Of a stretch of 51,547 nucleotides of DNA, positions 18,728 through 35,423 are shown piece by piece. This stretch comes from Klebsiella pneumoniae (GTDB lineage Bacteria > Pseudomonadota > Gammaproteobacteria > Pseudomonadales > CAMAPQ01), in NCBI GenBank assembly GCA_945860125.1, contig CAMAPQ010000009.1, positions 1 through 51,547 of the forward strand. Reading direction: 5' to 3'. A program made the position numbers and the translations under genes. The notes beneath the pieces were generated by a model. The model did not search any database, was not told the origin of the DNA, and saw only the letters and a list, made by a program, of their open reading frames with translations. The number at the start of each line of letters is the position of its first letter. Within the stretch, counting starts at the first letter, position 1.

Positions 18728-19646
18728 TCACCACGCCCCTTTTCTTCCTTTTTTGTACCATCTCATTTTTAATATCGCTCATTTTAAGCTCTTCAAAATC
18801 AACACCGCTCACTCTTAAATTCCAGCGATAGGCAAACAAGCCTAAATACTCATGCAATGAAATTCTGATGAGCCTAAAAGAATCAATCGTTGGCAGTGAT
18901 TTTTGTACTGGCTCCTGAAGCGGAATTCTCGTTAAAGAAAAGTCTGTAGGCGCAGGAATAACTTCTATACCTTGCTGCTCAAAACAATAAAGCGCCCGCC
19001 TCATGTGATAAGCACTGGTTACCAAAACAACTGTTTTGATGCCCTTCTCCTTGAGTAACTTAACCGAGTTTGTTGCATTTTCCCAAGTATTAATACTTTC
19101 AGACTCACGCCAAGTAACATGGCCACCAAACTCATTAACAAAATTAGCCATCATTGCAGATTCTGGTTTTTCACGCTTAACGGCAATACCACCGCTGACT
19201 AATAACGGAAGATCTAATCGTTTCTGTAGCCAAATGGTATAAAGTAGACGAGGAATAGCATCTCTGGTTACACCATCTTCGCCATATTCTGGCTGCTTAT
19301 AGGCTTTCCCCCCCCCTAAAGTGACAATAGCAACTGATTTATTTTTCGCATAAGCTTCACGAATGGAATCAAATTCTGCCTGCTTGAGCGGTGGAATATC
19401 TTCAAGTGATGAAATAAGAAACTCTGCCATCCATCCATTTGAAAAAAGCAAACAAACTAAAGAAGTTGCAATGACACCTTTCGAAAAGCGTTTGAACCGC
19501 GAAAAATAATAAAAAAGATAGCCAAAAGCTATAAACAATATAAATAAGGTAGGGGATAAAAATAACGCTTTCAAAAAATAGTAAAACTGCACAAAGAACT
19601 CGCTAGACTTTATTTTAAGGTCTTCAGACAAAAACGATACAACCAA
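18702..19646 (-). CDS. YdcF/ElyC-type (DUF218) membrane protein
   Basis: Two N-terminal membrane helices (about 25-50 and 55-75) precede a DUF218 domain marked by VTLGGGKAY, LLVSGGI, ESINTWENA and VTSAYHMRRA. E. coli ElyC of this family supports peptidoglycan assembly at low temperature; the biochemical reaction is not defined. The frame opens at a TTG (19646) inside the end of the DoxX-type gene, and no in-frame ATG lies upstream of the hydrophobic region. Overlaps on both sides place it in the hvf transcription unit. Confidence 0.82.
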   Translation of the reverse strand: MVVSFLSEDLKIKSSEFFVQFYYFLKALFLSPTLFILFIAFGYLFYYFSRFKRFSKGVIATSLVCLLFSNGWMAEFLISSLEDIPPLKQAEFDSIREAYAKNKSVAIVTLGGGKAYKQPEYGEDGVTRDAIPRLLYTIWLQKRLDLPLLVSGGIAVKREKPESAMMANFVNEFGGHVTWRESESINTWENATNSVKLLKEKGIKTVVLVTSAYHMRRALYCFEQQGIEVIPAPTDFSLTRIPLQEPVQKSLPTIDSFRLIRISLHEYLGLFAYRWNLRVSGVDFEELKMSDIKNEMVQKRKKRGVVSEDYIFQY

Positions 19647-20230
19647 TCATCCAAACTAACAAAACGACCACCACCTGAACTTATTAATACGAGTAACATG
19701 ATTAAATATGTTACAGCGAACTCAATACCGTTATTTAAAATAACAAAATTGCCGCTACTCGTAAGCCATTCATAATTACCATGCGCCTGAAGAATTTCTT
19801 TGGCTTTTTCTAGTTTTTCCGCTGAAGCAATAACACGTTCATTTGCAAAAAAAGCAGGATCAGGATTTGAAACTGCTAACCAACCGAATGGCCCATGTAC
19901 CGTTGTGATAGCAACAAGCATAGTCACCAATAGTGGAATAGCAATAAAACGAACACCTAAACCAACCACCAGAAGAAAGCTACCAAATAGTTCTGTCAAG
20001 GTAGCAAGCCATGCCATGATTACAGGGAAAGGCAAGCCTAAGCCATCAGGACTCCCAAACCAATCAATAATAGCATCAATTGATTCATATTTATGATATC
20101 CCGCAAAAAAGAAGATCGGCGCTAAATATAGCCTTAAAGCCAGAATGCCAATAAAATCCATTTTTTTTAAAAGACTTACTAAAAAATTAACAAACCTAAA
20201 TCCTTGCCGAAAATACGCTTTCACTGTCAT
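19610..20230 (-). CDS. hvfX: DoxX-family membrane protein, HvfX-like
   Basis: This 206-residue protein has four or five hydrophobic segments and DoxX features (LALRLYLAPIFFFAGYHK and LATLTELFGSFLLVVGLG). A periplasmic-type insertion lies between helices (about 110-165), and it ends GGGRFVSLDDWL. DoxX proteins of this kind are the fourth member of Hvf-type copper-binding peptide operons, where a role in maturation or export is suspected but unproven. I chose ATG 20230, 22 bases after the hvfC stop with AAGAGAG upstream; an earlier GTG lies inside hvfC. Confidence 0.85.
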   Translation of the reverse strand: MTVKAYFRQGFRFVNFLVSLLKKMDFIGILALRLYLAPIFFFAGYHKYESIDAIIDWFGSPDGLGLPFPVIMAWLATLTELFGSFLLVVGLGVRFIAIPLLVTMLVAITTVHGPFGWLAVSNPDPAFFANERVIASAEKLEKAKEILQAHGNYEWLTSSGNFVILNNGIEFAVTYLIMLLVLISSGGGRFVSLDDWLYRFCLKTLK

Positions 20231-20252
20231 AAAAATATTGGCTCTCTTATAA

Positions 20253-21032
20253 TCAAAGATGAAAAAATAAAACACCTCGGCTAATCATATCTTCAAATAA
20301 AACTTTGCCATGAGAAATAAAGTCAGTATTCAAAGTAAGATTAAGCTCACTAGCAATAATATCTAGGCTAGACTCGGCTGAAATTCCAGTATTTTGCTCA
20401 AATAAAGTTAACAATCTTGCTGTAACCTGGTTAATCTCTAAGCACTCAACTTGGTCATCTCTATTTCGGTAAACTAAAAGATGCGTTAATTCAGACTGAG
20501 CAGGAATGATACCACTTGAAATACGGTGTACAGGATAGCGATACACTAAAACCCAAGCTAAGGGAGATAAATAAAGCGGGCAAGATAACAAATCAGGGGT
20601 ACTTAACTCAAGCAGCATAGGGTCACAAGCAGTAGCAGGAAAATCTTCTTCACTAATGTCAATAGCAAGCTCTACCCACTCAAAATGTGCTAAATCAAGC
20701 ATAAAGGGAGGATCATTCTCGCCATTCCTCTCATTTTGTAAATACTTAAGAAACTCAATGCCTATTTCACAAAAATAAGGCGATGTAGAAACATGTCGAT
20801 GAATAAAATCACGAATCATCTCATGCCAAATAGCTTCAGACGTAATACTTCTTAAAATAGGAAAGCCATTTGAAATAAAGTCTTCAATGTTATTATAAAT
20901 TAAACGCTGATAAATTTTCATTCGCAATTCAGCGACGCTCTGAGGTATAGCGTAATTTTCAGGATGACGTATATTCTGCGTAAATTTTTTTTGCACTTCC
21001 TGAAAAGGATAAGAAATCAGACACTCTGCCAT
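20253..21032 (-). CDS. hvfC: DUF2063 RiPP-maturation partner, HvfC-like
   Basis: This 259-residue protein of the DUF2063 family has the characteristic start (FQEVQKKFTQNIRHP), then RMKIYQRLIYNNIEDFIS, GFPILRSI and the acidic helix FEWVELAIDIS. DUF2063 proteins act with the adjacent MNIO (DUF692) enzyme, probably by binding and presenting the precursor peptide. The ATG is immediately next to the hvfB stop codon, indicating coupling. The C-terminal half (LLVYRNRDDQVECLEIN) resembles a small peptide-binding winged-helix module; I infer that from its order and size only. Confidence 0.9.
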   Translation of the reverse strand: MAECLISYPFQEVQKKFTQNIRHPENYAIPQSVAELRMKIYQRLIYNNIEDFISNGFPILRSITSEAIWHEMIRDFIHRHVSTSPYFCEIGIEFLKYLQNERNGENDPPFMLDLAHFEWVELAIDISEEDFPATACDPMLLELSTPDLLSCPLYLSPLAWVLVYRYPVHRISSGIIPAQSELTHLLVYRNRDDQVECLEINQVTARLLTLFEQNTGISAESSLDIIASELNLTLNTDFISHGKVLFEDMISRGVLFFHL

Positions 21033-21932
21033 TTATCCTCCTACAGCAAGATTATAATCAGCAGAATTCTTTTTTGATTTTAGTACGGAAGATGAAGCGT
21101 CTCGGTTTACCATCCCCTGAATCATTTTTATTTTTTCTACTTCTTTTAGCAGAACATCAAAAGGCGGCAAATTAAAATCTCTTTCAAGCAAAGTAGGATA
21201 GACGCCATGAAACTGATAAGTGTATCGTAACAAATCCCATACAGGGTTAATAACATCAGCACCATGAGAATCAATAATTAAATTTTCTGCTTCATTCGCA
21301 TGACCAGCAATATGTATATAAACAATACGATCAGTAGGTATTTTACGTATAAATTCCAACGCATCATACTGATGATTTATACTATTTACATAAATATTAT
21401 TAACATCTAAAAGCAAAAAGCAGTCTGCTTCTTCAAGAATAGCATTTAGAAAAGTTATTTCATCCATTTCTTGGCCAGGCGCGCAATAATAAGAAACATT
21501 TTCGATTGCTATTTTACGCCCTAAAAAATCCTGCACTTGCCGTAGCCTAGCAGCAACATACTTAACTGAATCATCCGTAAAAGGAATAGGCATGAGATCA
21601 TAAAGGTGGCCATGATCGCCGCAATAGCTTAGATGCTCAGAGTAAATTCCTATGGAATAACGATTTAAAAAGAGCTTCAATTCAGCCAAAAAATCAAAAT
21701 CTAACAAGTGGGGAGCACCAATAGATAAAGATAAGCCATGCGCAACAATTGGGTATTTCTCAGCAATTGCAGATAACTCCCTACGAGATTTACCACCCAT
21801 CCTGATCCAGTTCTCAGGCGCAAGCTCTAAAAAATCAACAGGTGCTTTATCAGATAAAGCAAACGAGCTCATAAGAGCTCGCCGCAAACCCAAGCCAGCA
21901 CCATGAACGGCAGATAAATCATGCAGTATCAT
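21033..21932 (-). CDS. hvfB: MNIO-family (DUF692) multinuclear iron oxidase, HvfB-like
   Basis: MNIO enzymes use two or three iron ions and O2 to convert precursor cysteines to oxazolone/thioamide or related groups. The TIM-barrel motifs are complete: GAGLGLR, ELAPENW, His65 in VAHGLSLSIG, Glu99-His100 in YSEHLSY, Glu144-Asn145 in AIENVSYY, Asp176 in LLLDVNNIYVN, His207/His211 in IHIAGH, Asp221/His223 in DSHG and Glu250 in LLERDF. The 299-residue length is typical. The ATG follows TGAGG eight bases upstream. The precursor gene is 28 bases upstream and the DUF2063 partner directly abuts downstream. Confidence 0.95.
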   Translation of the reverse strand: MILHDLSAVHGAGLGLRRALMSSFALSDKAPVDFLELAPENWIRMGGKSRRELSAIAEKYPIVAHGLSLSIGAPHLLDFDFLAELKLFLNRYSIGIYSEHLSYCGDHGHLYDLMPIPFTDDSVKYVAARLRQVQDFLGRKIAIENVSYYCAPGQEMDEITFLNAILEEADCFLLLDVNNIYVNSINHQYDALEFIRKIPTDRIVYIHIAGHANEAENLIIDSHGADVINPVWDLLRYTYQFHGVYPTLLERDFNLPPFDVLLKEVEKIKMIQGMVNRDASSSVLKSKKNSADYNLAVGG

Positions 21933-21960
21933 AGTAATGCCTCAGCTCATACTCGCAAAA

Positions 21961-22302
21961 TTACTTCGCTTCAGCAGGTGCTTTGTCTTTATGAGCACCA
22001 CACTTGCCTTCACCACACTTGCCATCTTTTTTCTTGCCTTCACCACACTTGCCTTCTTTCATTTTGCCTTCACCACACTTACCTTCTTTCATTTTGCCTT
22101 CACCACACTTACCTTCCATGCCTTTTTCACCGCACTTGCCCTCGGCTGCTTTAGTGTCATCTGCAGCAACTTGGAATGAACCTTTAACTTCTTTGGCAGC
22201 AAAAGGATTGCCGTGATCTTGTTGCGCCTGCACACTTACAGAAGAAAGAGCTGAAACAACCAATGCTGCGCCTAAAGTACCTATCATTGCTTTCTTAGAC
22301 AT
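21961..22302 (-). CDS. hvfA: Cys-rich copper-binding RiPP precursor with EGKCG repeats, HvfA-like
   Basis: The 113 residues comprise a Sec signal peptide (1-26, ending VSVQA), a spacer (27-53) and a core of six cysteines at 57, 66, 76, 86, 96 and 101. Five lie in EGKCG and one in DGKCG, separated by short EGKMK-like links. HvfA-type precursors carry EGKCG motifs that the MNIO maturase converts to thiooxazole or oxazolone-thioamide groups that bind Cu(I). With hvfB, hvfC and hvfX downstream, the assignment is firm at system level. The ATG follows TAGGAGA at good spacing. The DNA under the core is a 30-base tandem repeat. A C-terminal AHKDKAPAEAK follower is present. Confidence 0.93.
   Translation of the reverse strand: MSKKAMIGTLGAALVVSALSSVSVQAQQDHGNPFAAKEVKGSFQVAADDTKAAEGKCGEKGMEGKCGEGKMKEGKCGEGKMKEGKCGEGKKKDGKCGEGKCGAHKDKAPAEAK
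22006..22122. repeat. 30-bp tandem repeat inside the hvfA core
   Basis: Units start at 22006, 22036, 22066 and 22096 (partial), each opening GCCTTCACCACACTT. Each unit encodes a ten-residue block with one EGKCG cysteine. Copies 22036 and 22066 differ by one base, implying recent duplication and a copy number that may vary between strains. Confidence 0.9.
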
Positions 22303-22811: not shown

Positions 22812-24425
22812 ATGATTAACTATTATTTAATATCACAAAATTTATACCGAGCAAAAAAAACAAAACTTTTATTCCTATCACTTTTCTATGTATTCAATCT
22901 TTTAATATTAAATGCATGTGGCAATAGCAATTCATCTAAAACATCTGAAGATGTAAACCAAGAAAATGCCATTAATATCACAGGCAAAAATGTCTCTGGT
23001 AATTTGCTTTCTATTATTAAAACAGCAGGCGGAACAGTAGAGGGCTCGGGTATTAATTGTGGCACAACCTGCTCAGGTTATTATAAAGGACAAGAAAATG
23101 TAACGCTTATAGCAACACCAGAATCAGGCTTTATTTTTAATGGTTGGGAAGGTGATTGTGCAGGCATGGGAAGTTGTGAAGTTCAAGTTAACATACCAAA
23201 AGAAGTACGTGCTTCCTTTACAGCAATAAATACAGCAGACTTATGTATAGGGCTTATAACAGATAAAAGTGAAAAAATTATTCAGCCTGTGACACAACCC
23301 AATATCAAAGAGAGTTACATTGATCCTACTTTTGGAACACGTATTACACGCATAACGCAAAGCGAATCAAGCCGTCCTATAAAACCAATGTACAGTACCA
23401 TACAAGCGTGGAATAGCGATGAATCATATTTTATATTATATGAAGTGGGAAAAGGACACCGTCTATATAGCGGAAAAAATTATGATTTCATTTCCTACCT
23501 TGATATTAGCCCGAGTGATATTGAAGGCGTTTACTGGCATTTTTCAGATCCTAATACACTTACTTATATTGATAATAATGAGAAAAAAGTCATTCAATAT
23601 CATATTTCCATAAAAACTAAAAATACTATTATTGACCTCAAAAACACCTGCAACTCAAATATTGTAAGCGGTGGCGATATACAAATGAGTTCATGGGATA
23701 GCAATAATATTGGCTTTAGATGTAACGGGAAAAGTGGAAAAATAGCAGGCTATATTGATATCAATCAAAAGACTACTCATGTTTTTAGCAGTAAGGACAA
23801 AAACTACAGTGAATTTATTGCACCCATGCCTTCAGCAAGTGGAAAATATTTTTATATGCAAGGTGATATACTTGATAAAAACTTAAACTTAGTGAGAAAA
23901 CTTGATCTGTCTAACGCACTAGAGCACGCTAACTTAGGAAAAGATCATTTAGGGGAAGATGTCTATCTCACCGCCATATTTGATCCGGGCGCTAAAGGAT
24001 GCGAAGTGGGTAGCGTTGTGATGCACAACTTGGCAAGCGGTGCCTGCGATGTCCTTGCAGGACCCAGCACTGGTCTGCCCTATCCACCACCGAACACACA
24101 TATTTCTGCTCAGGCTTATAAAAATACTGGCTGGGTTGCTGTCTCCACAATTGGTGAAGGTGATAATCTACCCTCAGCCAATGCCCAGAAAAAACTACCT
24201 ACAACTATTGGAGAGATTTATCTTGTGAATACCGATCCTTCACAAACCCGTTTTTGCCGCGTAGCTCACCATAGAACATGGGGAAAATCAGGCAATAACG
24301 GCTATTGGGCTGAACCGCATCCTGCCATAAGCCCGACAGGAACACGAATACTATTTAGTAGTGATTTTCATAACACAGGCAGAACGGATACTTACGTTGT
24401 TGAACTGCCGAGCTTTGCAAAATAA
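22812..24425 (+). CDS. Lipoprotein with InlB-type B-repeat and WD40/TolB-like propeller
   Basis: This 537-residue lipoprotein has its lipobox near residue 36 (LILNACGNS). Residues about 68-138 form one bacterial B-repeat (GGTVEGSGINCGTTC, ENVTLIATPESGFIFNGWEGDC, ending VRASFTA). From about 150 onward are repeated blades of a beta-propeller (DESYFILYEV, YWHFSDPNTLTYID, HPAISPTGTRILFSSDF), like oligogalacturonate-lyase/TolB-type propellers. No catalytic residues are recognised; a surface binding role is plausible. The upstream hvf operon is divergent. A strong terminator follows at 24472-24506. Confidence 0.75.
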   Translation: MINYYLISQNLYRAKKTKLLFLSLFYVFNLLILNACGNSNSSKTSEDVNQENAINITGKNVSGNLLSIIKTAGGTVEGSGINCGTTCSGYYKGQENVTLIATPESGFIFNGWEGDCAGMGSCEVQVNIPKEVRASFTAINTADLCIGLITDKSEKIIQPVTQPNIKESYIDPTFGTRITRITQSESSRPIKPMYSTIQAWNSDESYFILYEVGKGHRLYSGKNYDFISYLDISPSDIEGVYWHFSDPNTLTYIDNNEKKVIQYHISIKTKNTIIDLKNTCNSNIVSGGDIQMSSWDSNNIGFRCNGKSGKIAGYIDINQKTTHVFSSKDKNYSEFIAPMPSASGKYFYMQGDILDKNLNLVRKLDLSNALEHANLGKDHLGEDVYLTAIFDPGAKGCEVGSVVMHNLASGACDVLAGPSTGLPYPPPNTHISAQAYKNTGWVAVSTIGEGDNLPSANAQKKLPTTIGEIYLVNTDPSQTRFCRVAHHRTWGKSGNNGYWAEPHPAISPTGTRILFSSDFHNTGRTDTYVVELPSFAK

Positions 24426-24946: not shown

Positions 24947-25067
24947 ACAGCCTCCCCTATTCATTCACATTTAAAAGCTAAATCTTGGCATTGATCAGCC
25001 TAGAAGGCGTAGCTAGAATAATCACCCTAACTTCATCTGTTAGGTTAGGAGCTGGCTTATAAACAAA

Positions 25068-25103
25068 AAAGCCGCCGAACCCAATATAGGTTCGGCGGCT
25101 TTT
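25068..25103. terminator. GC-rich bidirectional terminator hairpin
   Basis: GCCGCCGAACC pairs with GGTTCGGCGGC across a 7-base loop, flanked by A-runs on the left and T-runs on the right. On the minus strand it ends the arm carrying the small lipoprotein and repeat-protein genes. Confidence 0.9.
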
Positions 25104-25167: not shown

Positions 25168-25302
25168 TTAGACGTTCACACACACAAAACCACATTTACT
25201 TTTATTATCACGGTCCAAACCGCCAACACCAGCATCACAACCTACCAAGCCAAGGGTAGAAACAGCAAGTACAACAGCAACAATTTTATATATTTTTTTC
25301 AT
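25168..25302 (-). CDS. 44-residue small lipoprotein
   Basis: Frame: MKKIYKIVAVVLAVS start, lipobox LVGC at 19-22, mature DAGVGGLDRDN, then a tail with two more cysteines (SKCGFVCVNV). GGAGAG lies 8 bases before the ATG. The signal sequence, ribosome site and following terminator make it a convincing gene despite its size. No family was recognised. It lies 60 bases downstream of the secreted repeat protein at 25363 and may be co-transcribed. Confidence 0.75.
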   Translation of the reverse strand: MKKIYKIVAVVLAVSTLGLVGCDAGVGGLDRDNKSKCGFVCVNV

Positions 25303-25362
25303 GTCTATTCTCTCCAAATTTATTTAAATCAATTCAACAAAACCAGCTATAGAAGAAGCAAT

Positions 25363-25866
25363 TTATGGTGCACCAGAAGGTATCAAGCCAGTAATTGCAT
25401 CAAAAACACTCTGACCATCAGCACCCAAAGCAGTTTTAAGCAAACTACCCGCTGCAAAATCAGTAGCAAGCGTTGTCGTTGGACCTCCAGCACCTTGCTG
25501 AGCAACACCAATGCCGGCGCCTGGGCTACAGGTACTTGCACCAAAAGAACCTATCGCTACTTTGCCGCAAGCAGAGCCGCCAGCAAGCGCGACGTTAACA
25601 ACTGAGATCTCATCAAATAAACCACTAACGGTTACTTTTGAATTAATATTGCCAGCTTTCGTTGTGCCATGAAAAGAACCAATACTAGTTTCCACTTCAG
25701 ATGTCGCTAACGCTGCACCTAAGTTAATAACCATACCCTTTACTTCAACGGTTGAATTAATATCGCCTGCGACATCTGTTGTTGAAGTAAGTGCAGATAC
25801 TGTGAAAGGCGCTGAGATTAACGCCGCAGTAATAGCTAAAGATAACATTTTCATTTTCATTTTCAT
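25363..25866 (-). CDS. Secreted repeat protein A of the putative fibre locus
   Basis: This 167-residue protein has a signal peptide (MKMKMKMLSLAITAAL, cleaved near TVSA). The mature part appears to hold two related units of about 38-42 residues. The first opens GDINSTVEVKGMVINLGAAL and ends VETSIGSF; the second opens GNINSKVTVSG and ends CGKVAIGSFGASTC. A Gly/Ala/Thr-rich C-terminal region follows. The pattern matches two other proteins here (26312 and 27976), making a three-member family. Alternating polar/hydrophobic strands with fixed IGS turns suggest a beta-solenoid or amyloid-like subunit; this is inference. GGAAGG lies just before the ATG. Confidence 0.7.
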   Translation of the reverse strand: MKMKMKMLSLAITAALISAPFTVSALTSTTDVAGDINSTVEVKGMVINLGAALATSEVETSIGSFHGTTKAGNINSKVTVSGLFDEISVVNVALAGGSACGKVAIGSFGASTCSPGAGIGVAQQGAGGPTTTLATDFAAGSLLKTALGADGQSVFDAITGLIPSGAP

Positions 25867-26311
25867 TTCCTTCCTTATACATTTTTGATTTTTATACTAC
25901 CTGATTTTTATATCTTCCCTACCCTATTACAACACAACTCAGCATCCGTGCTTAAGTTAACTTTTAACACAATTAAACTACAAAAAAAATGTTTTTTTCA
26001 TAAAAAAATCATTTATATATATGGATATAAAACCACTGTTTTTTTAAATACCTATTATACAAAATAACCGCTCATTTATCAGACAAAAAAAGTACAAACT
26101 AAATACTAACCATATTAAATTGATTAAAAATAAAAAGATTAAAAAGTAAGCAAGAATAAAGTATAAAAGGGGAAAAATATCCAATATTACCTATATTAAA
26201 TATAAGATATGATTTTTTAATTTTTGTAGCGGCATTTTTTTGAGATAAAATAAAGACGTGAAAATATATACGTTATTTTTATATAATCTAAAAAATTGAG
26301 AATATTCTCAA
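25867..26311. other. 445-base very AT-rich spacer
   Basis: The stretch lies upstream of repeat protein A and downstream of repeat protein B on the minus strand. It must contain the promoter of A. No RNA, repeat or convincing frame was seen; the 60-residue plus-strand frame at 25885 is low-complexity and lacks a ribosome site. Confidence 0.5.
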
Positions 26312-26689
26312 CTACCTATTATCAATGTAACTTTTACATGTGCCAGGGCCTATAGAGCCAATAGATACTTTTGCACAAATACCCTCATTACCACCTTCAC
26401 TTAGCGCTGTATTTAATACGCTAACACCAGTTTTAATACCATTAACTGAAATATCAGTCGTATAATTTCCATTTATTTTTAAATCATTATGAGCTGAACC
26501 AATACTTACTTCAGTTTCTATAGCACTTGCCTGCCCTAAGACAGCACCAAGATTAATAACTATACCTTGAACATCAATATTTGAATTAAGGTCGCCACCC
26601 AAATTAAAGCTTTCAGAAAAAGAAATCATAGAAAAAGAAAGCGCACTAAAAAATACTCCCAAAATAAATATTTTTTTTTTAATTCTCAT
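26312..26689 (-). CDS. Secreted repeat protein B of the putative fibre locus
   Basis: This 125-residue protein has a signal peptide (MRIKKKIFILGVFFSALS, cleaved near SFSES). Two units match those of protein A: GDLNSNIDVQGIVINLGAVL ending EVSIGSAH, then TTDISVNGIKTGVSVLN ending CAKVSIGSIGPGTC. It lacks A's long C-terminal extension and ends shortly after the second unit. GGTGG lies 6 bases before the ATG. The two cysteines in the second unit, conserved across all three paralogues, could form a disulfide. Function is inferred only from the neighbourhood. Confidence 0.7.
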   Translation of the reverse strand: MRIKKKIFILGVFFSALSFSMISFSESFNLGGDLNSNIDVQGIVINLGAVLGQASAIETEVSIGSAHNDLKINGNYTTDISVNGIKTGVSVLNTALSEGGNEGICAKVSIGSIGPGTCKSYIDNR

Positions 26690-26789
26690 TTTTTACCACC
26701 AAACATGATATGTATTTATATTGGTTTTATTTAAGATAAATCCAGCCTATGATGTAATTCCAAAAAGCATATAGGGCTGCTTTCTTTTA

Positions 26790-27551
26790 CTAATTAAACC
26801 ATCCTTTTTTCTTTTTAATCGAGATACCTGTCGAACATACCACAAGACTAATTCTTCTATTTAATGTTCTTGCAGAATCATCTGCATTTTCAGCCCTAGG
26901 CGTCATTTCACCTTTTCCCGCACCTACTGTACGCTCAGGCAATACTTCATTCTTATTTAGGTAACGCTCAACGTTATAAGCACGATGCTCAGATAGTAAT
27001 TGATTATACTCAACAGGACCTGAATCATCAGCATGCCCTATAACCTCAATTCGAGTTTCAGGATATTCAGCTAATTTTTTAGTTAAACGATCTAATACTG
27101 GATAAAAAGAAGGCTCAACATGGGTCATATCAAATGGAAACCCTCGTACATTTGGCATCTCTATCCAAACAGTTTCTTTTCGTCTATGAATAAATAAATG
27201 TTCACGATGAAAGTCTTTTCTTAATTCTTGCTCAAGCTTATCAAGATAAGCCCAATCAATATTTTTTCCTTCCGCACAAAAAGGCACTGGTTTATTCTTT
27301 AAATCACCTGATTCAGACTTATTCTTAGTTAATGGATTAGCGCCCACCGTTACATTATAAAAAGTAGCGATCAAACCTTCAGACTTGAAATTACGATCTT
27401 TATCAATATCACCGGAGTAGGGATCAGTATATCTAGGGCCCTGACAACCAGAAGTAAAAAGAGATGACACAAAAAATAAGCTCACAAAACAAAAACGCCT
27501 AGGAAACGGCATAAATGCAACTTTAACGTGCCTAGAAGATGATGAAATCAT
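26790..27551 (-). CDS. OmpA-domain lipoprotein
   Basis: This 253-residue lipoprotein has its lipobox at about 33-36 (TSGC). The C-terminal OmpA-like peptidoglycan-binding domain (about 145-240) shows TRIEVIGHADDSG, EYNQLLSEHRAYNVERYL, RTVGAGKGEM and LNRRISLVV. The N-terminal half is a divergent domain without a recognised family. It would tether an outer-membrane complex to the cell wall, as CsgE/F-like or Pal-like partners do in other export systems. It heads the leftward arm and is divergent from the CsgG-like arm. AGGA lies 8 bases upstream of the ATG. Confidence 0.85.
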   Translation of the reverse strand: MISSSSRHVKVAFMPFPRRFCFVSLFFVSSLFTSGCQGPRYTDPYSGDIDKDRNFKSEGLIATFYNVTVGANPLTKNKSESGDLKNKPVPFCAEGKNIDWAYLDKLEQELRKDFHREHLFIHRRKETVWIEMPNVRGFPFDMTHVEPSFYPVLDRLTKKLAEYPETRIEVIGHADDSGPVEYNQLLSEHRAYNVERYLNKNEVLPERTVGAGKGEMTPRAENADDSARTLNRRISLVVCSTGISIKKKKGWFN

Positions 27552-27975
27552 TTATTTTTCCTATATACAGATCTTTTTTTCATATTTTATAAACGTATCC
27601 TTGTTATCTTTGCTCAGCTTATTGTGAAAAGACTAAAGCCTTAAATCATAAGCTTGGGATAGCATCTGCTGTATTTTTAACCTTATTATTTTAATAACAG
27701 ACTGAAGACATTAAGCATAAGCTAGCAAACTTTACCAACCTTAATCAAGCATTTAAAGCTATCGCAATGTTTTTTTTTACAATTGATATACATAAGCATT
27801 TAAAAAAAACAAAACGTTAACACTTTAATCGTAAAAATCGGGGTTAAATTGAGTTTTATCGACTTTTTTGGTAAAAAATGCATTATGCTGATTGAAATTG
27901 GGATAATAAGTGAAGTACATTATCTCTTGTAAGGATAAACAAACAATAAGATTAAGATAATTACAGGGTGTGAAT
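27552..27975. promoter_or_regulatory. 424-base divergent control region of the putative fibre locus
   Basis: The region separates the OmpA-type lipoprotein (left) from the repeat-protein/CsgG-like arm (right) and must hold both promoters. It is AT-rich. No operator could be defined by eye. Confidence 0.4.
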
Positions 27976-28299
27976 ATGATTGACATAAACAACTTTCCCG
28001 GCTTTGCCCGCTTTTTGGTTTCTCTCATTACTTTTTCATCTTTATTCGTGCTTCCAGCTTATGCCGCACCTAATCTTACTGGTGATGTTGATATTGTTGT
28101 GAGCACACAAGAAATAATTAATATTGCAACAGATGACGCCTCAATTGCAGAAGTTATTTTAGGCTCATTTATTGATGGTAAGGCTACTGACTTTCAAGCG
28201 ACTGTAACAACTCAATCAGTGACAAACTCAGCCTCTGGCGGTGCTTGCTCTCAGGTAATCATAGGCTCGGTGGGACCAACCACATGTCTTGGCAATTAA
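27976..28299 (+). CDS. Secreted repeat protein C of the putative fibre locus
   Basis: This 107-residue protein has a signal peptide (GFARFLVSLITFSSLFVL, cleaved near AYA). It contains two short units: GDVDIVVSTQEIINIA ending VILGSF, then ATVTTQSVTNSASGGAC ending VIIGSVGPTTC. The closing motif V-x-I-G-S-x-G-P-x-T-C is shared with protein B and, less exactly, protein A. It is the most compact member. I chose ATG 27976, with AGGG at 7 bases, over the GTG six bases upstream. It is the first gene of the rightward arm leading to the CsgG-like protein. Confidence 0.7.
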   Translation: MIDINNFPGFARFLVSLITFSSLFVLPAYAAPNLTGDVDIVVSTQEIINIATDDASIAEVILGSFIDGKATDFQATVTTQSVTNSASGGACSQVIIGSVGPTTCLGN

Positions 28300-28380
28300 C
28301 TAAGTAAGCACTTTAAACGACATCAGCTGAATTTGTGGGCGTTTTTATAAAAAAATGAAGACAAAAAAAAGGGACACTCA

Positions 28381-28764
28381 ATGAAAAAAGTGACTCAATA
28401 CGCTCATTTACTACTTGCTGCTGTATTATTTACAGCAAGCAAGCCTGCCTTGGCAGGAAGTGGCATAAACCCTAAAAGCAATGCTTATTCGGGAGGCTAC
28501 TCTTATACACCAGTTAAAGGACGCGTTCAGATTTATAAGTATAAAGCGCTAGATGCAAGGCTACCCAGAACAGATAAATATAAAAGCATTGTAAGCAGTG
28601 GCAACACTGACTATATGCGTTTTAGTGGTGACTCACTGCCTACTCTTGGTGATTGCTCGATTAATATTGGAAATATTTTTTCAAATAATAACGATAAATT
28701 TAGTAAAAAAGAAACGATGGTCATTATCGATGGTGATGTACTCAATGTTAGTAAATGCGATTAA
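28381..28764 (+). CDS. Small secreted protein, HfaA-like (tentative)
   Basis: A signal peptide (MKKVTQYAHLLLAAVLF, ending KPALA) is followed by a 102-residue mature protein: SNAYSGGYSYTP near its start, a basic middle and a C-terminal stretch INIGN...ETMVIIDGDVLNVSKC. From memory, the Asn/Gly/Tyr-rich start and the IGN...V-I-D-G ending recall HfaA, the small amyloid-like holdfast-anchor protein of Caulobacter. Similarity is weak. The gene directly precedes and overlaps a CsgG/HfaB-like gene, the same order as hfaA-hfaB, which strengthens the idea. Confidence 0.55.
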   Translation: MKKVTQYAHLLLAAVLFTASKPALAGSGINPKSNAYSGGYSYTPVKGRVQIYKYKALDARLPRTDKYKSIVSSGNTDYMRFSGDSLPTLGDCSINIGNIFSNNNDKFSKKETMVIIDGDVLNVSKCD

Positions 28765-30334
28765 AATAATTAAAAATATTTTCGTGGTAACCCTTATTAT
28801 TACCACCCTATCAACCTCAACTGGATGCGCTCGCTTTTTATTTGGTGACAAGGCATTATCACGTAACCCAGCAGAAAAACCAGTTGTGAATATTACGACA
28901 TTTTCTGACTCGCTTGAATGCATGGATGAAATGCTAATTCAGTTTGAAGTACCCGTTATTACTGTCACAGCTCAAGACATTCCAAATAGATCGACTGACG
29001 TGGGTATTACAAATGGCGCAAAGGAAATGCTGATTACCTCCATGTCAAAACTCTCAGAAAGAAGTGAACGTATTCGCTTTGTATCTTTTGGTTCAGATCT
29101 TCGTGATGTCGTCCTTCTACAGCAAGCTCACTCGAAAAAAGATACTTTTTCAGTACCAGACTTCTTTATAAGAGGCGGGATTACTCAATATGATCGCAAT
29201 GTTATTTCATCGCGTATTGGTACAGGTCTTAATCATGAAGACTGGAACACTACGATTTCCGGTGGACAGGGTATTTCATTTGCTGGGCTTGATCTCAACG
29301 CTGGTCTTGTTAGAAACCTGCAAATGCTATCTGGCGTTACGTCAAACAATGTGCTCGCGATTTACGATAAAGGCATGGGAACAGAAGTTGGTGCCCGCTT
29401 AAATTCAGTCGGTACATTTTTTGACTTTGGTTTAGATAAACAAGATGGCCTTGGCCAAGCTGTGCGCAACATGATCGACTTAGGCGCAATTGAAATTGTT
29501 GGTAAATTATACGATATCCCTTACCTGACCTGCTTACCGGTTAAATATGATGATCCTTATGTGACTAAACTTATACTTAAAGAATATAAGAGGTATCGCG
29601 ATAATTACTCCAAATTAATCAGAACGGTACAAGCCAGACTAAAACAAAATAATTATTATCGTGGCGAACTTACAGGTAAGCTCGACCAGAATACTTACCT
29701 TTCCATTGAATACTTTAGGCATCTTACAAAACTTCCTGCCACAGGCGGAGAAGTCATTGATTTCCCTCTTTATAAGGCGCTACTTTATGGAAAAAAATAC
29801 GACTGGGAATATGATGCTATTGGCTCAAAAGATACGCTAAATACTGCGATATCCCACAACAATGAAGCGCTTACCTTTGATAAATATGATGACTCCTATC
29901 CAAAATTAAACACAAAAAATCCAGGCTCAGCAGTGAGCCCGCCACCGCCTAATAAACTACTGAACACCAATAAAACGAGATCAAGCTTTACTGAGAAAGC
30001 TGAAGAAACAGCACCAACTCGTACTCAACGACCTAATGAATATAGAGGGCAAAATAAAGAACCAGCGCCAGAGATTCCAGCGCCCCTTGAAATAGAAATT
30101 ATCGATCAAAACGGCCAAAGACCAAACGCTTACTACGGAAGTGGAGTTGGAATGGATGGAAATAATACAGATGGCGCCAACCCCCAAAGAGGGACAAATA
30201 GTTCATCTAGACCCTATAGAGAAGGCGCATATGAAGCACAACAAAGACAACAAAACCAAAATCCAACAGGCGGCGCTCAACAGACAACGCCATACAAAAA
30301 ATCTATCTGGGATACTCAGTCTCCATACTACTAG
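28745..30334 (+). CDS. CsgG/HfaB-like secretion-pore lipoprotein with peptidoglycan-binding domain
   Basis: Signal peptide and lipobox (TSTGCARF) are followed by a CsgG-type region (about 40-255): ITTFSDSLECMDEM, FFIRGGITQYDRN, a beta-hairpin rich segment and NMIDLGAIEIVGKLYDIPY. CsgG-family lipoproteins form nine-fold outer-membrane pores that export curli or holdfast-anchor subunits. Next comes a peptidoglycan_binding_1-like segment (about 280-345: VQARLKQNNYYRGELTG, KLDQNTYLSIEYFRH) and a long Pro/Asn/Gln-rich tail. I chose ATG 28745, which gives a proper lipoprotein signal and a 20-base overlap with the upstream gene; the longest frame starts at 28598 but its first 49 residues lie in another gene. 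Confidence 0.8.
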   Translation: MLVNAIKIIKNIFVVTLIITTLSTSTGCARFLFGDKALSRNPAEKPVVNITTFSDSLECMDEMLIQFEVPVITVTAQDIPNRSTDVGITNGAKEMLITSMSKLSERSERIRFVSFGSDLRDVVLLQQAHSKKDTFSVPDFFIRGGITQYDRNVISSRIGTGLNHEDWNTTISGGQGISFAGLDLNAGLVRNLQMLSGVTSNNVLAIYDKGMGTEVGARLNSVGTFFDFGLDKQDGLGQAVRNMIDLGAIEIVGKLYDIPYLTCLPVKYDDPYVTKLILKEYKRYRDNYSKLIRTVQARLKQNNYYRGELTGKLDQNTYLSIEYFRHLTKLPATGGEVIDFPLYKALLYGKKYDWEYDAIGSKDTLNTAISHNNEALTFDKYDDSYPKLNTKNPGSAVSPPPPNKLLNTNKTRSSFTEKAEETAPTRTQRPNEYRGQNKEPAPEIPAPLEIEIIDQNGQRPNAYYGSGVGMDGNNTDGANPQRGTNSSSRPYREGAYEAQQRQQNQNPTGGAQQTTPYKKSIWDTQSPYY

Positions 30335-33782: not shown

Positions 33783-35423
33783 ATGGCACAACGCAAAATG
33801 ATGCCCAATGCATTAAAGAAAGTAGCTTGGTTTGCTTTTTTAACTTTAGTTATAAGTGCACGCGCCTTTGCACTGGAAGCTAATATTACATGTCCAGATC
33901 TTGACAATCTGTCAAGCTGTATTGTGTCACCCAGCAATAGTTTTAGCACCGAAGGTATCGTTGAAACACTCAATAGTATTAACGAGTGTAAAACCAATGA
34001 ACAACAAACAGAAGTAACCTGTAGCACCACGCAAGGCATTCCTTTTTCGTGCTCAAGTCTTTCGGAAAATACTGCAAGCTGTCGACTACCAGATAATACG
34101 CAAATTAATTGCGCCAATATCAGCGATGAATCAGCAACCTGCTTACTGGCTTCAGATGACACACTAAAAGATAAACTTACCGAAGGTATTCAAACGCCAG
34201 CCTGGCGAGATATGGCTATTATCCTCGCAATGATTTGCCCCACGCGCAAACTAACCCCTGATTTACAAGCAGAATGCGATAGGCTTATTTCTCAGGCTTT
34301 AAATGGCGAATCACTCAGCGATCTACTAAACCAGATCACTCCCATGGGTGCCGCCTCTAGCGTAGATGCAACACGTCTTGCTGATGAAGCACATCGTCGG
34401 TATATACGACAAAGAATTATGAGTTTAAGAAAAGAAAAAGTAACGCCTTATCAATCGGTTAATCATGCATCTTCTTTCTTTTCTTTACTCTCCTCTGTAG
34501 CAGATAATAGTATTGAACCAAGCACTGCTTACGATCAGCCTACTTTCTCAAGAGTGGGTAGCTTTTTTAATGGTGCGGTTTTATCTGGTGATAAAGCCAA
34601 TTCAAACGATGAACTCGGCTCAGATTGGACTACCGCTAGTTTTACAGGGGGTATTGATTACCGTTTAACTAACCAATTTATTTATGGCTCCGCTTTTGGC
34701 TATCAACAAACCACGATTGAGCTTGTACAAAACCGTTATCAAATGGATCAAACAGGCTATAGCGCAAGCTTATATGGGTCATGGTTTAATAAAGAGGGTT
34801 TTTATTTAGAATCGGTCCTATCTTACAGTGGCTACCGTTTTAATCAGGATAGAAATATTAGTTATAACTTAGGCTCTCTCAATGTATCGCAACTAGCAAC
34901 GTCCCGTTATTTTTCTGATAAAACCTCTCTTACTTTAGGTAGTGGAGTTCAAAAAGAATATCGCGCTTTGTCTATTGACTGCTATCTTCTAGGCGAACTA
35001 AGCCAGTCAACCGTTGATGGATATGAGGAAAAAATTACCAGCAATAATAACAATGGCGCAGGTTGGGCATTGCATTATAACGATCAAAGTCAAGACTCAA
35101 AAAGGTTATCCTTAGGCACTCAAATCAGTTATGCGCTATCCCAACGCTGGGGTGTTTTACAGCCAACAGCACGTATTGAGTTTTTACATGAGCTTGAAAC
35201 AGACAAAAGAAATATTTCAGGTTATTTCTCTGGCAATACGATCAACCCCCTTTCTTTTTCCCTGAGCACGAACGCAATTGATCAAAACTATTTCCAAACA
35301 GGTGTTGGTGCTTCTATGGTATTTACAGCCAATCAGTCCGCTTTTATATTTTTAGAATCTCTCCTAGGACATCAAACATTTAGTCAAACCTACTTAAACG
35401 CCGGTTGGCGCTGGGAGCTATGA
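33783..35423 (+). CDS. Autotransporter-type protein with Cys-rich short passenger
   Basis: A signal peptide (ends ARAFA) precedes a short, Cys-rich region (residues about 30-125) with eight regularly spaced cysteines. Two near-copies of C-x2-[LI]-S-[ED]-x2-A-[ST]-C are visible. A helical linker (about 135-235: AIILAMICPTRK, ADEAHRRYIRQRIMSLRK) leads to a C-terminal autotransporter barrel (about 260-546: YGSAFGYQQTTI, GYSASLYGSWFN and final NAGWRWEL). The passenger is far smaller than in typical adhesins. The even cysteine number suggests disulfides. Its stop overlaps the lptD start (ATGA), so expression is coupled to LPS-export machinery. GGAGG is present upstream of the ATG. Confidence 0.8.
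   Translation: MAQRKMMPNALKKVAWFAFLTLVISARAFALEANITCPDLDNLSSCIVSPSNSFSTEGIVETLNSINECKTNEQQTEVTCSTTQGIPFSCSSLSENTASCRLPDNTQINCANISDESATCLLASDDTLKDKLTEGIQTPAWRDMAIILAMICPTRKLTPDLQAECDRLISQALNGESLSDLLNQITPMGAASSVDATRLADEAHRRYIRQRIMSLRKEKVTPYQSVNHASSFFSLLSSVADNSIEPSTAYDQPTFSRVGSFFNGAVLSGDKANSNDELGSDWTTASFTGGIDYRLTNQFIYGSAFGYQQTTIELVQNRYQMDQTGYSASLYGSWFNKEGFYLESVLSYSGYRFNQDRNISYNLGSLNVSQLATSRYFSDKTSLTLGSGVQKEYRALSIDCYLLGELSQSTVDGYEEKITSNNNNGAGWALHYNDQSQDSKRLSLGTQISYALSQRWGVLQPTARIEFLHELETDKRNISGYFSGNTINPLSFSLSTNAIDQNYFQTGVGASMVFTANQSAFIFLESLLGHQTFSQTYLNAGWRWEL

Follow-up and report, generated by a model that had tools for sequence, protein, structure and literature searches.

A probable CsgG-type export locus with paired-repeat secreted subunits, a conserved companion protein and predicted cell-wall anchors

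Introduction

Apart from HfaB, the model for CsgG-type secretion of surface polymers has so far been the curli pore, and the pore of the Fap system differs from the CsgG type. In Caulobacter, HfaB is required to position HfaA and HfaD at the cell surface and has been proposed as their translocon; HfaA and HfaD anchor polysaccharide (PMC6707917). A survey of curli systems reported many CsgG matches outside curli operons and, with them, unexplained CsgG paralogues (PMC3521004). Here we describe a locus at positions 25168-30334 of contig CAMAPQ010000009.1, within a stretch of 51,547 nucleotides (nt) that was analysed as a whole and is called the window below. Two divergent arms encode seven exported proteins, among them a CsgG/HfaB-like lipoprotein, an OmpA-type lipoprotein, three small repeat proteins (S1, S2 and S3) and a small secreted protein, which we call the companion. 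The genome carrying the window measures 2.58 Mb, is 96.8% complete and falls in Gammaproteobacteria, as does Methylotuvimicrobium buryatense 5G.

On balance, we think that the locus encodes a CsgG-family export and assembly system, related to the curli and holdfast-anchor machineries through its pore only, which would build a fibre or an adhesive layer on the cell surface, with peptidoglycan as its anchoring point. An initial annotation of the same DNA had already proposed such a locus: two divergent arms with a CsgG/HfaB-like pore lipoprotein, an OmpA-type lipoprotein and three paralogous paired-repeat proteins unlike curli repeats. The open reading frames (ORFs) lie where that annotation placed them, and the comparisons reported below confirm what it observed and support its interpretation. 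The companion had not been singled out in it.

Results

Layout of the locus

Reading of the ORFs gives the following features (lengths in amino acids, aa).

25067-25103, minus strand: strong terminator-like hairpin (17 pairs, 9 GC), ending the minus arm
25168-25302, minus strand: putative 44-aa lipoprotein with an LVGC lipobox, from sequence reading
25363-25866, minus strand: subunit S1, with a signal peptide, two repeats and a C-terminal extension of ~50 aa (half-to-half z=5.4)
26312-26689, minus strand: subunit S2, with a signal peptide, two repeats and a C-terminal Cys pair (41% identity to S1)
26790-27551, minus strand: OmpA-type lipoprotein, 253 aa, predicted peptidoglycan anchor (OmpA domain, PF00691, E 4.4e-14)
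27970-28299, plus strand: subunit S3, with a signal peptide, two ~36-aa repeats and a C-terminal Cys pair (profile of relatives, E 7e-8)
28381-28764, plus strand: companion, a small secreted protein of 127 aa (its homologues immediately precede the CsgG-like gene)
28745-30334, plus strand: CsgG/HfaB-like lipoprotein, 529 aa, putative pore (HfaB model; modelled fold)

The minus arm thus runs from the OmpA lipoprotein through S2, S1 and the 44-aa ORF to the hairpin. In the plus arm, S3 is followed by the companion and then by the CsgG-like gene, these two genes overlapping at the stop codon of the former.

The CsgG-like lipoprotein

The CsgG-like protein consists of a signal peptide with C28, a CsgG-fold domain (residues ~49-272), a PG_binding_1-like domain (~285-350) and a tail (354-529) that is not conserved and is modelled by AlphaFold2 (AF2) with low confidence; the closest homologue of the protein, 52% identical, has just 363 aa. 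Across most of residues 100-350 the AF2 model, built with 53 homologues, reaches a predicted local distance difference test (pLDDT) score of 80-97, the loop 153-172 being of low confidence. When this model was compared with the PDB by Foldseek, ranks 1-25 were all CsgG chains (E 1e-5). In VIA comparisons, residues 49-272 matched CsgG of the CsgF-CsgG complex with Z 10.7 over 186 residues and residues 280-351 matched the peptidoglycan-binding N-domain of SleB with Z 8.8; further lipoproteins sharing the broad CsgG fold scored lower. At the profile level, hhalign aligned the family with E. coli K-12 CsgG over 186 columns with a score of 45.1, against 15.5 +/- 3.0 for shuffled CsgG. The initial annotation had named a CsgG-like fold in a structure model as a test, and this fold is confirmed at the level of modelling. 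The Pfam CsgG model gives the window protein 11.2 bits, below its curated cut-off of 20.8. Sequence matches to solved structures include no CsgG, which came up among these structures by fold comparison only. Of the 53 homologues, 16 are matched by the same Pfam model with E no higher than 0.1, the lowest value being 3e-4. The HfaB model matches the window protein with E 1e-4 and 21.5 bits, its cut-off being 300. A peptidoglycan-binding domain is found in 23 of the 53 homologues, and DUF4384 terminates some of them.

The same genome has a second CsgG-family gene (L121, G000 C29:9500-23000), located in an operon of small lipoproteins, which we take to be of the DUF4810/DUF799 type. We considered this gene as the real partner and rejected it, as it belongs to a separate operon. 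Its surroundings do lend something to an alternative in which the CsgG-like protein of our locus exports nothing and serves as a lipoprotein scaffold, with the small proteins as its periplasmic partners. Many lipoproteins that export nothing have the same fold, and the peptidoglycan-binding domains of both the putative pore and the OmpA protein face the periplasm. However, multiplied and fast-diverging repeat subunits, with arrays of more than 10 units in other phyla, typify surface polymers and not partners in the periplasm, and the match to CsgG takes in the first membrane-hairpin region. We therefore consider such a hub improbable and prefer an export system.

The companion and the conservation of the module in Pseudomonadota

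Few parts of the locus are as diagnostic as the companion. Its alignment shows a C-terminal motif, C-S-x-x-IG...VxIxGDxxN, with C92, G97, G118 and D119 invariant. A profile of the CsgG-like protein matches 18 of 398 Pseudomonadota genomes; the companion profile, searched separately, matches 11 of the 398, and all 11 are among those 18. Comparison of coordinates shows that, in every one of the 11, the companion gene immediately precedes the CsgG-like match and shares its strand. Only three of these genomes (the window's own, G741 and G912) had contributed to the companion query alignment, the other eight being absent from it. A hypergeometric estimate for all ten foreign matches falling inside 17 of 397 genomes is <1e-12, adjacency not counted. 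The initial annotation had set co-occurrence of the genes in other genomes as a test in advance, and co-occurrence is what these genomes show. As for the identity of the companion, CsgF (6 columns and a probability of 0.2% in hhalign) and CsgE were both rejected by profile comparison.

The most similar locus (L116) belongs to another family of the same order and has orthologues for five window proteins, with identities of 52% (CsgG-like), 44% (S3), 39% (companion), 34%/30% (S1/S2, represented by one gene) and 27% (OmpA). Its S3 orthologue lies at L116:8101-8556 and the S1/S2 orthologue at L116:8501-8932 (E 7e-9 to S1), and its OmpA homologue (E 8.6e-24) is likewise divergent from the CsgG arm. 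The order subunit(s), companion, CsgG-like gene recurs in two loci of one genus (L013 and L014), in Thiotrichales (L031) and in L117. Seven further Pseudomonadota loci repeat the module, with subunits of two or three repeats, a small protein, the CsgG-like gene and OmpA downstream, most of them also with a small 'CWQ' protein. The companion profile matches the small protein in six of the seven; in L170 the slot is taken by an unrelated small secreted protein. Based on these data, we can state with confidence that the window-type module of subunits, companion, CsgG-like protein and OmpA is conserved. Its spread is patchy: within the window's order, clear matches were found in its own genome and three others, of 294. 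The tree joins the window to L116 (100/100) within a clade of ten rows (97/84), and long branches leave the deeper joins unsure.

The repeat subunits

S1, S2 and S3 are paralogues, as judged by local alignment against shuffled sequences (S1-S2 z=22, S1-S3 z=6.8, S2-S3 z=7.1), and each is built of paired repeats. The first and second halves of S2 and S3 align with z=3.6 and 5.3, respectively, next to the value listed above for S1, and the half-to-half score was reached by 0/300 (S1), 2/300 (S2) and 0/300 (S3) shuffles. The same test gave values near 0, and no internal repeat, for two controls, the companion and the N-terminal half of the OmpA protein. The units follow the approximate pattern x-x-G-[DN]-x-N-x-x-V-x-V-x-x-x-V-x-N-x-A...x-I-G-S; a cysteine pair, C...IGSxGxxxC, closes the final one. 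A subunit profile made from relatives only, run against the 102 ORFs of the window, matches just S3, S1 (E 0.0013) and S2 (E 0.022), and the same three alone are found after removal of the closest relative (0.0048, 0.012 and 0.052).

No fitting Pfam or NCBIfam family was found for the subunits, and matches between the repeat proteins and unrelated Pfam families were dismissed as low-complexity noise. A FapC model is touched by one of 29 subunit stretches (E 0.04). PDB entry 9xfv, 'bacteria pilus (like)', resembles the subunit profile in its GS/VxxxN spacing, the match being not significant (E 0.99). The possibility that the subunits are curlins was rejected: hhalign against CsgA gave nothing, and Pfam curlin has no match in S1-S3 or in 29 relatives. 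This bears on the idea of a true curli or Hfa system diverged past recognition. The pore does belong to the same family, and an accessory gene stands directly upstream of the pore gene, as in csgF-csgG. Yet CsgE and CsgF are absent from the genome, profile similarity is lacking between subunit and CsgA as well as between companion and CsgF or CsgE, and the curated cut-offs of both CsgG and HfaB are missed. This explanation was already disfavoured, and we regard it as very improbable compared with a distinct system sharing the pore family.

A wider family in other phyla

A search for related loci with the single CsgG-like protein of the window found none. The wider search used the family alignment as query and scanned named genomes; it yielded at least 80 loci in Desulfobacterota (Desulfobulbaceae and others), Methylococcaceae, Nitrospirota, Campylobacterota, Planctomycetota and Elusimicrobiota. 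In these loci a different small secreted protein (DLDDGI...NSVVLGAGS...GDIYII) precedes the CsgG-like gene, standing directly upstream of it in 69 of the 74 counted, with a median gap of 38 nt. Most also have, near the CsgG-like gene, secreted tandem-repeat proteins with 2 to >10 units of ~37 aa ending in MGSV, and these units align in register with those of the window type. OmpA is present in 21 of 89 loci, nearly all of them in Pseudomonadota. Two other proteins are frequent among the matches listed: a GNKKIM... LPP20-like secreted protein in 42 Desulfobacterota and Nitrospirota loci (within L032-L110, e.g. L041:2976-3713), and a DUF2807 protein beside the CsgG-like gene in 34 loci.

Since the CsgG-like protein is shared and the gene order is parallel, we infer a phylum-spanning family of CsgG-like loci. 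It is tempting to go further and see in it an independent branch of CsgG-dependent secretion, equipped with a subunit family and an accessory protein of its own and with peptidoglycan-anchored pores, extending over six phyla (Pseudomonadota, Desulfobacterota, Nitrospirota, Campylobacterota, Planctomycetota and Elusimicrobiota) and making an unknown class of extracellular fibre. We put this forward tentatively, as a possibility with slightly less than even chances.

Neighbouring genes and other features of the window

In two of the related loci, genes for two-partner secretion (L116:569-6333 and L031:9718-11526) directly adjoin the module: a TpsB transporter in both, and in L116 also a TpsA adhesin of 1354 aa. 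They bring to mind a holdfast-like anchor, in which a polysaccharide or a two-partner-secreted adhesin is tethered to the outer membrane and the subunits form an extracellular plug or cap, with no fibre. HfaB is, moreover, the closest curated model, Caulobacter HfaB positions the polysaccharide-anchoring HfaA and HfaD (PMC6707917), and subunits of two repeats are short for a fibre. On the other hand, the HfaB cut-off is missed widely, no polysaccharide genes were noticed among the window ORFs adjoining the locus, and neither the window nor most of the loci have Tps genes. Thus, we find an anchor of this kind unlikely, though less so than the other alternatives, and retain fibre or coat export as the better explanation.

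Other neighbours of the module include a Peptidase_C14 caspase-like protein (L014:6071-7801, by Pfam) and L168:1037-2866, caspase-like by appearance; such neighbours recur in Pseudomonadota. In the window, 33783-35423 (plus strand) encodes an autotransporter (PF03797, E 7.7e-35), possibly a functional partner. In Methylococcaceae (L068, L075 and L084) and in a Chromatiaceae metagenome-assembled genome (L046), homologues of this autotransporter are encoded no more than a few kb from the CsgG-like locus. The locus itself is flanked by a phasin-like gene and by a metabolic gene that is unrelated to it and read from the other strand. At lower coordinates, 22812-24425 (plus strand) encodes a lipoprotein-like protein of 537 aa in which an InlB B-repeat domain (PF18998, E 1.7e-9) is accompanied by a likely beta-propeller, and 19610-22302 (minus strand) holds what we presume, from its appearance, to be a bufferin-like cluster: a KCGEGKM-repeat Cys-rich precursor (21961-22302), then DUF692-like, DUF2063-like and DoxX-like genes.

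Some gene calls deserve comment. S3 may start at GTG 27970 or ATG 27976. The 44-aa ORF has a ribosome-binding-site-like GGAGAG ahead of its ATG; its codon usage is neutral, and it is therefore the least certain gene of the locus. The 445-nt gap between S2 and S1 (25867-26311) is AT-rich, holds no convincing gene and may contain an S1 promoter. A promoter scan found no excess over shuffled sequences.

Discussion

Taken together, the data point to what is probably a variant of CsgG-type export, its function being predicted. According to the mechanism that we propose, S1, S2 and S3, all with signal peptides, would cross the inner membrane by Sec and remain unfolded. The CsgG-like lipoprotein might then form an oligomeric ring in the outer membrane through which the subunits pass out; ring and pore are proposed by analogy with CsgG, whose fold the model shows. 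The companion, given its linkage, could act as a gate or nucleator at the pore, like CsgF, encoded next to csgG. The peptidoglycan-binding-like domain of the pore and the OmpA lipoprotein would fix the assembly to the cell wall, and outside the cell the two-repeat subunits might stack on one another, giving a fibre rich in beta structure or an adhesive coat. We infer this fibre or adhesin export function from the repeats, the small size of the subunits, the multiplication of paralogues and the longer arrays that a similar repeat forms in other phyla.

Several observations weigh against this proposal. The AF2 model of S3 (29 sequences) has a pLDDT of 37, and therefore no subunit fold backs the fibre. 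The CsgG fold is common to lipoproteins that form no pore, such as PelC, TraT, LptE and TolB. The two membrane hairpins of a pore are only suggested, with residues 153-172 of low confidence, and strand alternation is raised at 160-184 and 215-229 and elsewhere in the protein too. CsgE has no match in this nearly complete genome, the E. coli control being positive. As regards the other phyla, repeats of the window type and the Desulfobacterota type give a weak profile score, amounting to resemblance only, and homology of the window-type and DLDDGI-type companions, which we tried to establish by profile comparison, was not demonstrated.

With this locus, one large group of the unexplained CsgG paralogues (PMC3521004) gains a conserved set of partners, namely repeat subunits, a diagnostic companion and cell-wall anchors. 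If the proposal is right, it would also mean a widespread class of surface polymers, possibly relevant to the biofilms of methanotrophs, sulfate reducers and relatives of nitrifiers, and a new source of CsgG-type nanopores. The locus is present in the tractable, laboratory-grown Methylotuvimicrobium buryatense 5G (L084/L017), there with two subunit genes, the companion, the CsgG-like gene and OmpA; since such hosts carry it, secretion and fibre formation are directly testable.

The initial annotation regarded the system as undescribed, and this holds within the reach of Pfam, NCBIfam and the open-access literature searched, where no description of the gene set was found. Among the systems that come closest, the L121 operon shares a CsgG-family lipoprotein, but there the Pfam CsgG match is full-length (E 4e-33), the partners are different and repeat subunits are missing. 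The Fap functional amyloid (FapA-F) resembles our locus in having small, secreted subunits that are built of repeats and might form amyloid. With curli, the locus has in common a CsgG-fold lipoprotein, small Sec-exported repeat subunits and, immediately ahead of the pore gene, a small accessory gene. In contrast to curli, it has no CsgE, CsgF or curlin repeat, its companion is unrelated, its pore carries an extra peptidoglycan-binding domain, an OmpA anchor is present, and the repeat unit is ~36-47 aa long and ends in IGS/GSV. Caulobacter HfaABD offers a parallel in its anchoring logic and in a CsgG homologue of the HfaB kind, for which export of surface subunits is proposed. No NCBIfam match named HfaA or HfaD was found for the subunits or the companion, the presence of HfaA/HfaD models in that library being unconfirmed. 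The window protein differs from HfaB in falling far under the curated cut-off, its locus has other subunits together with peptidoglycan-binding and OmpA parts, and the system is widespread beyond the stalked Alphaproteobacteria.

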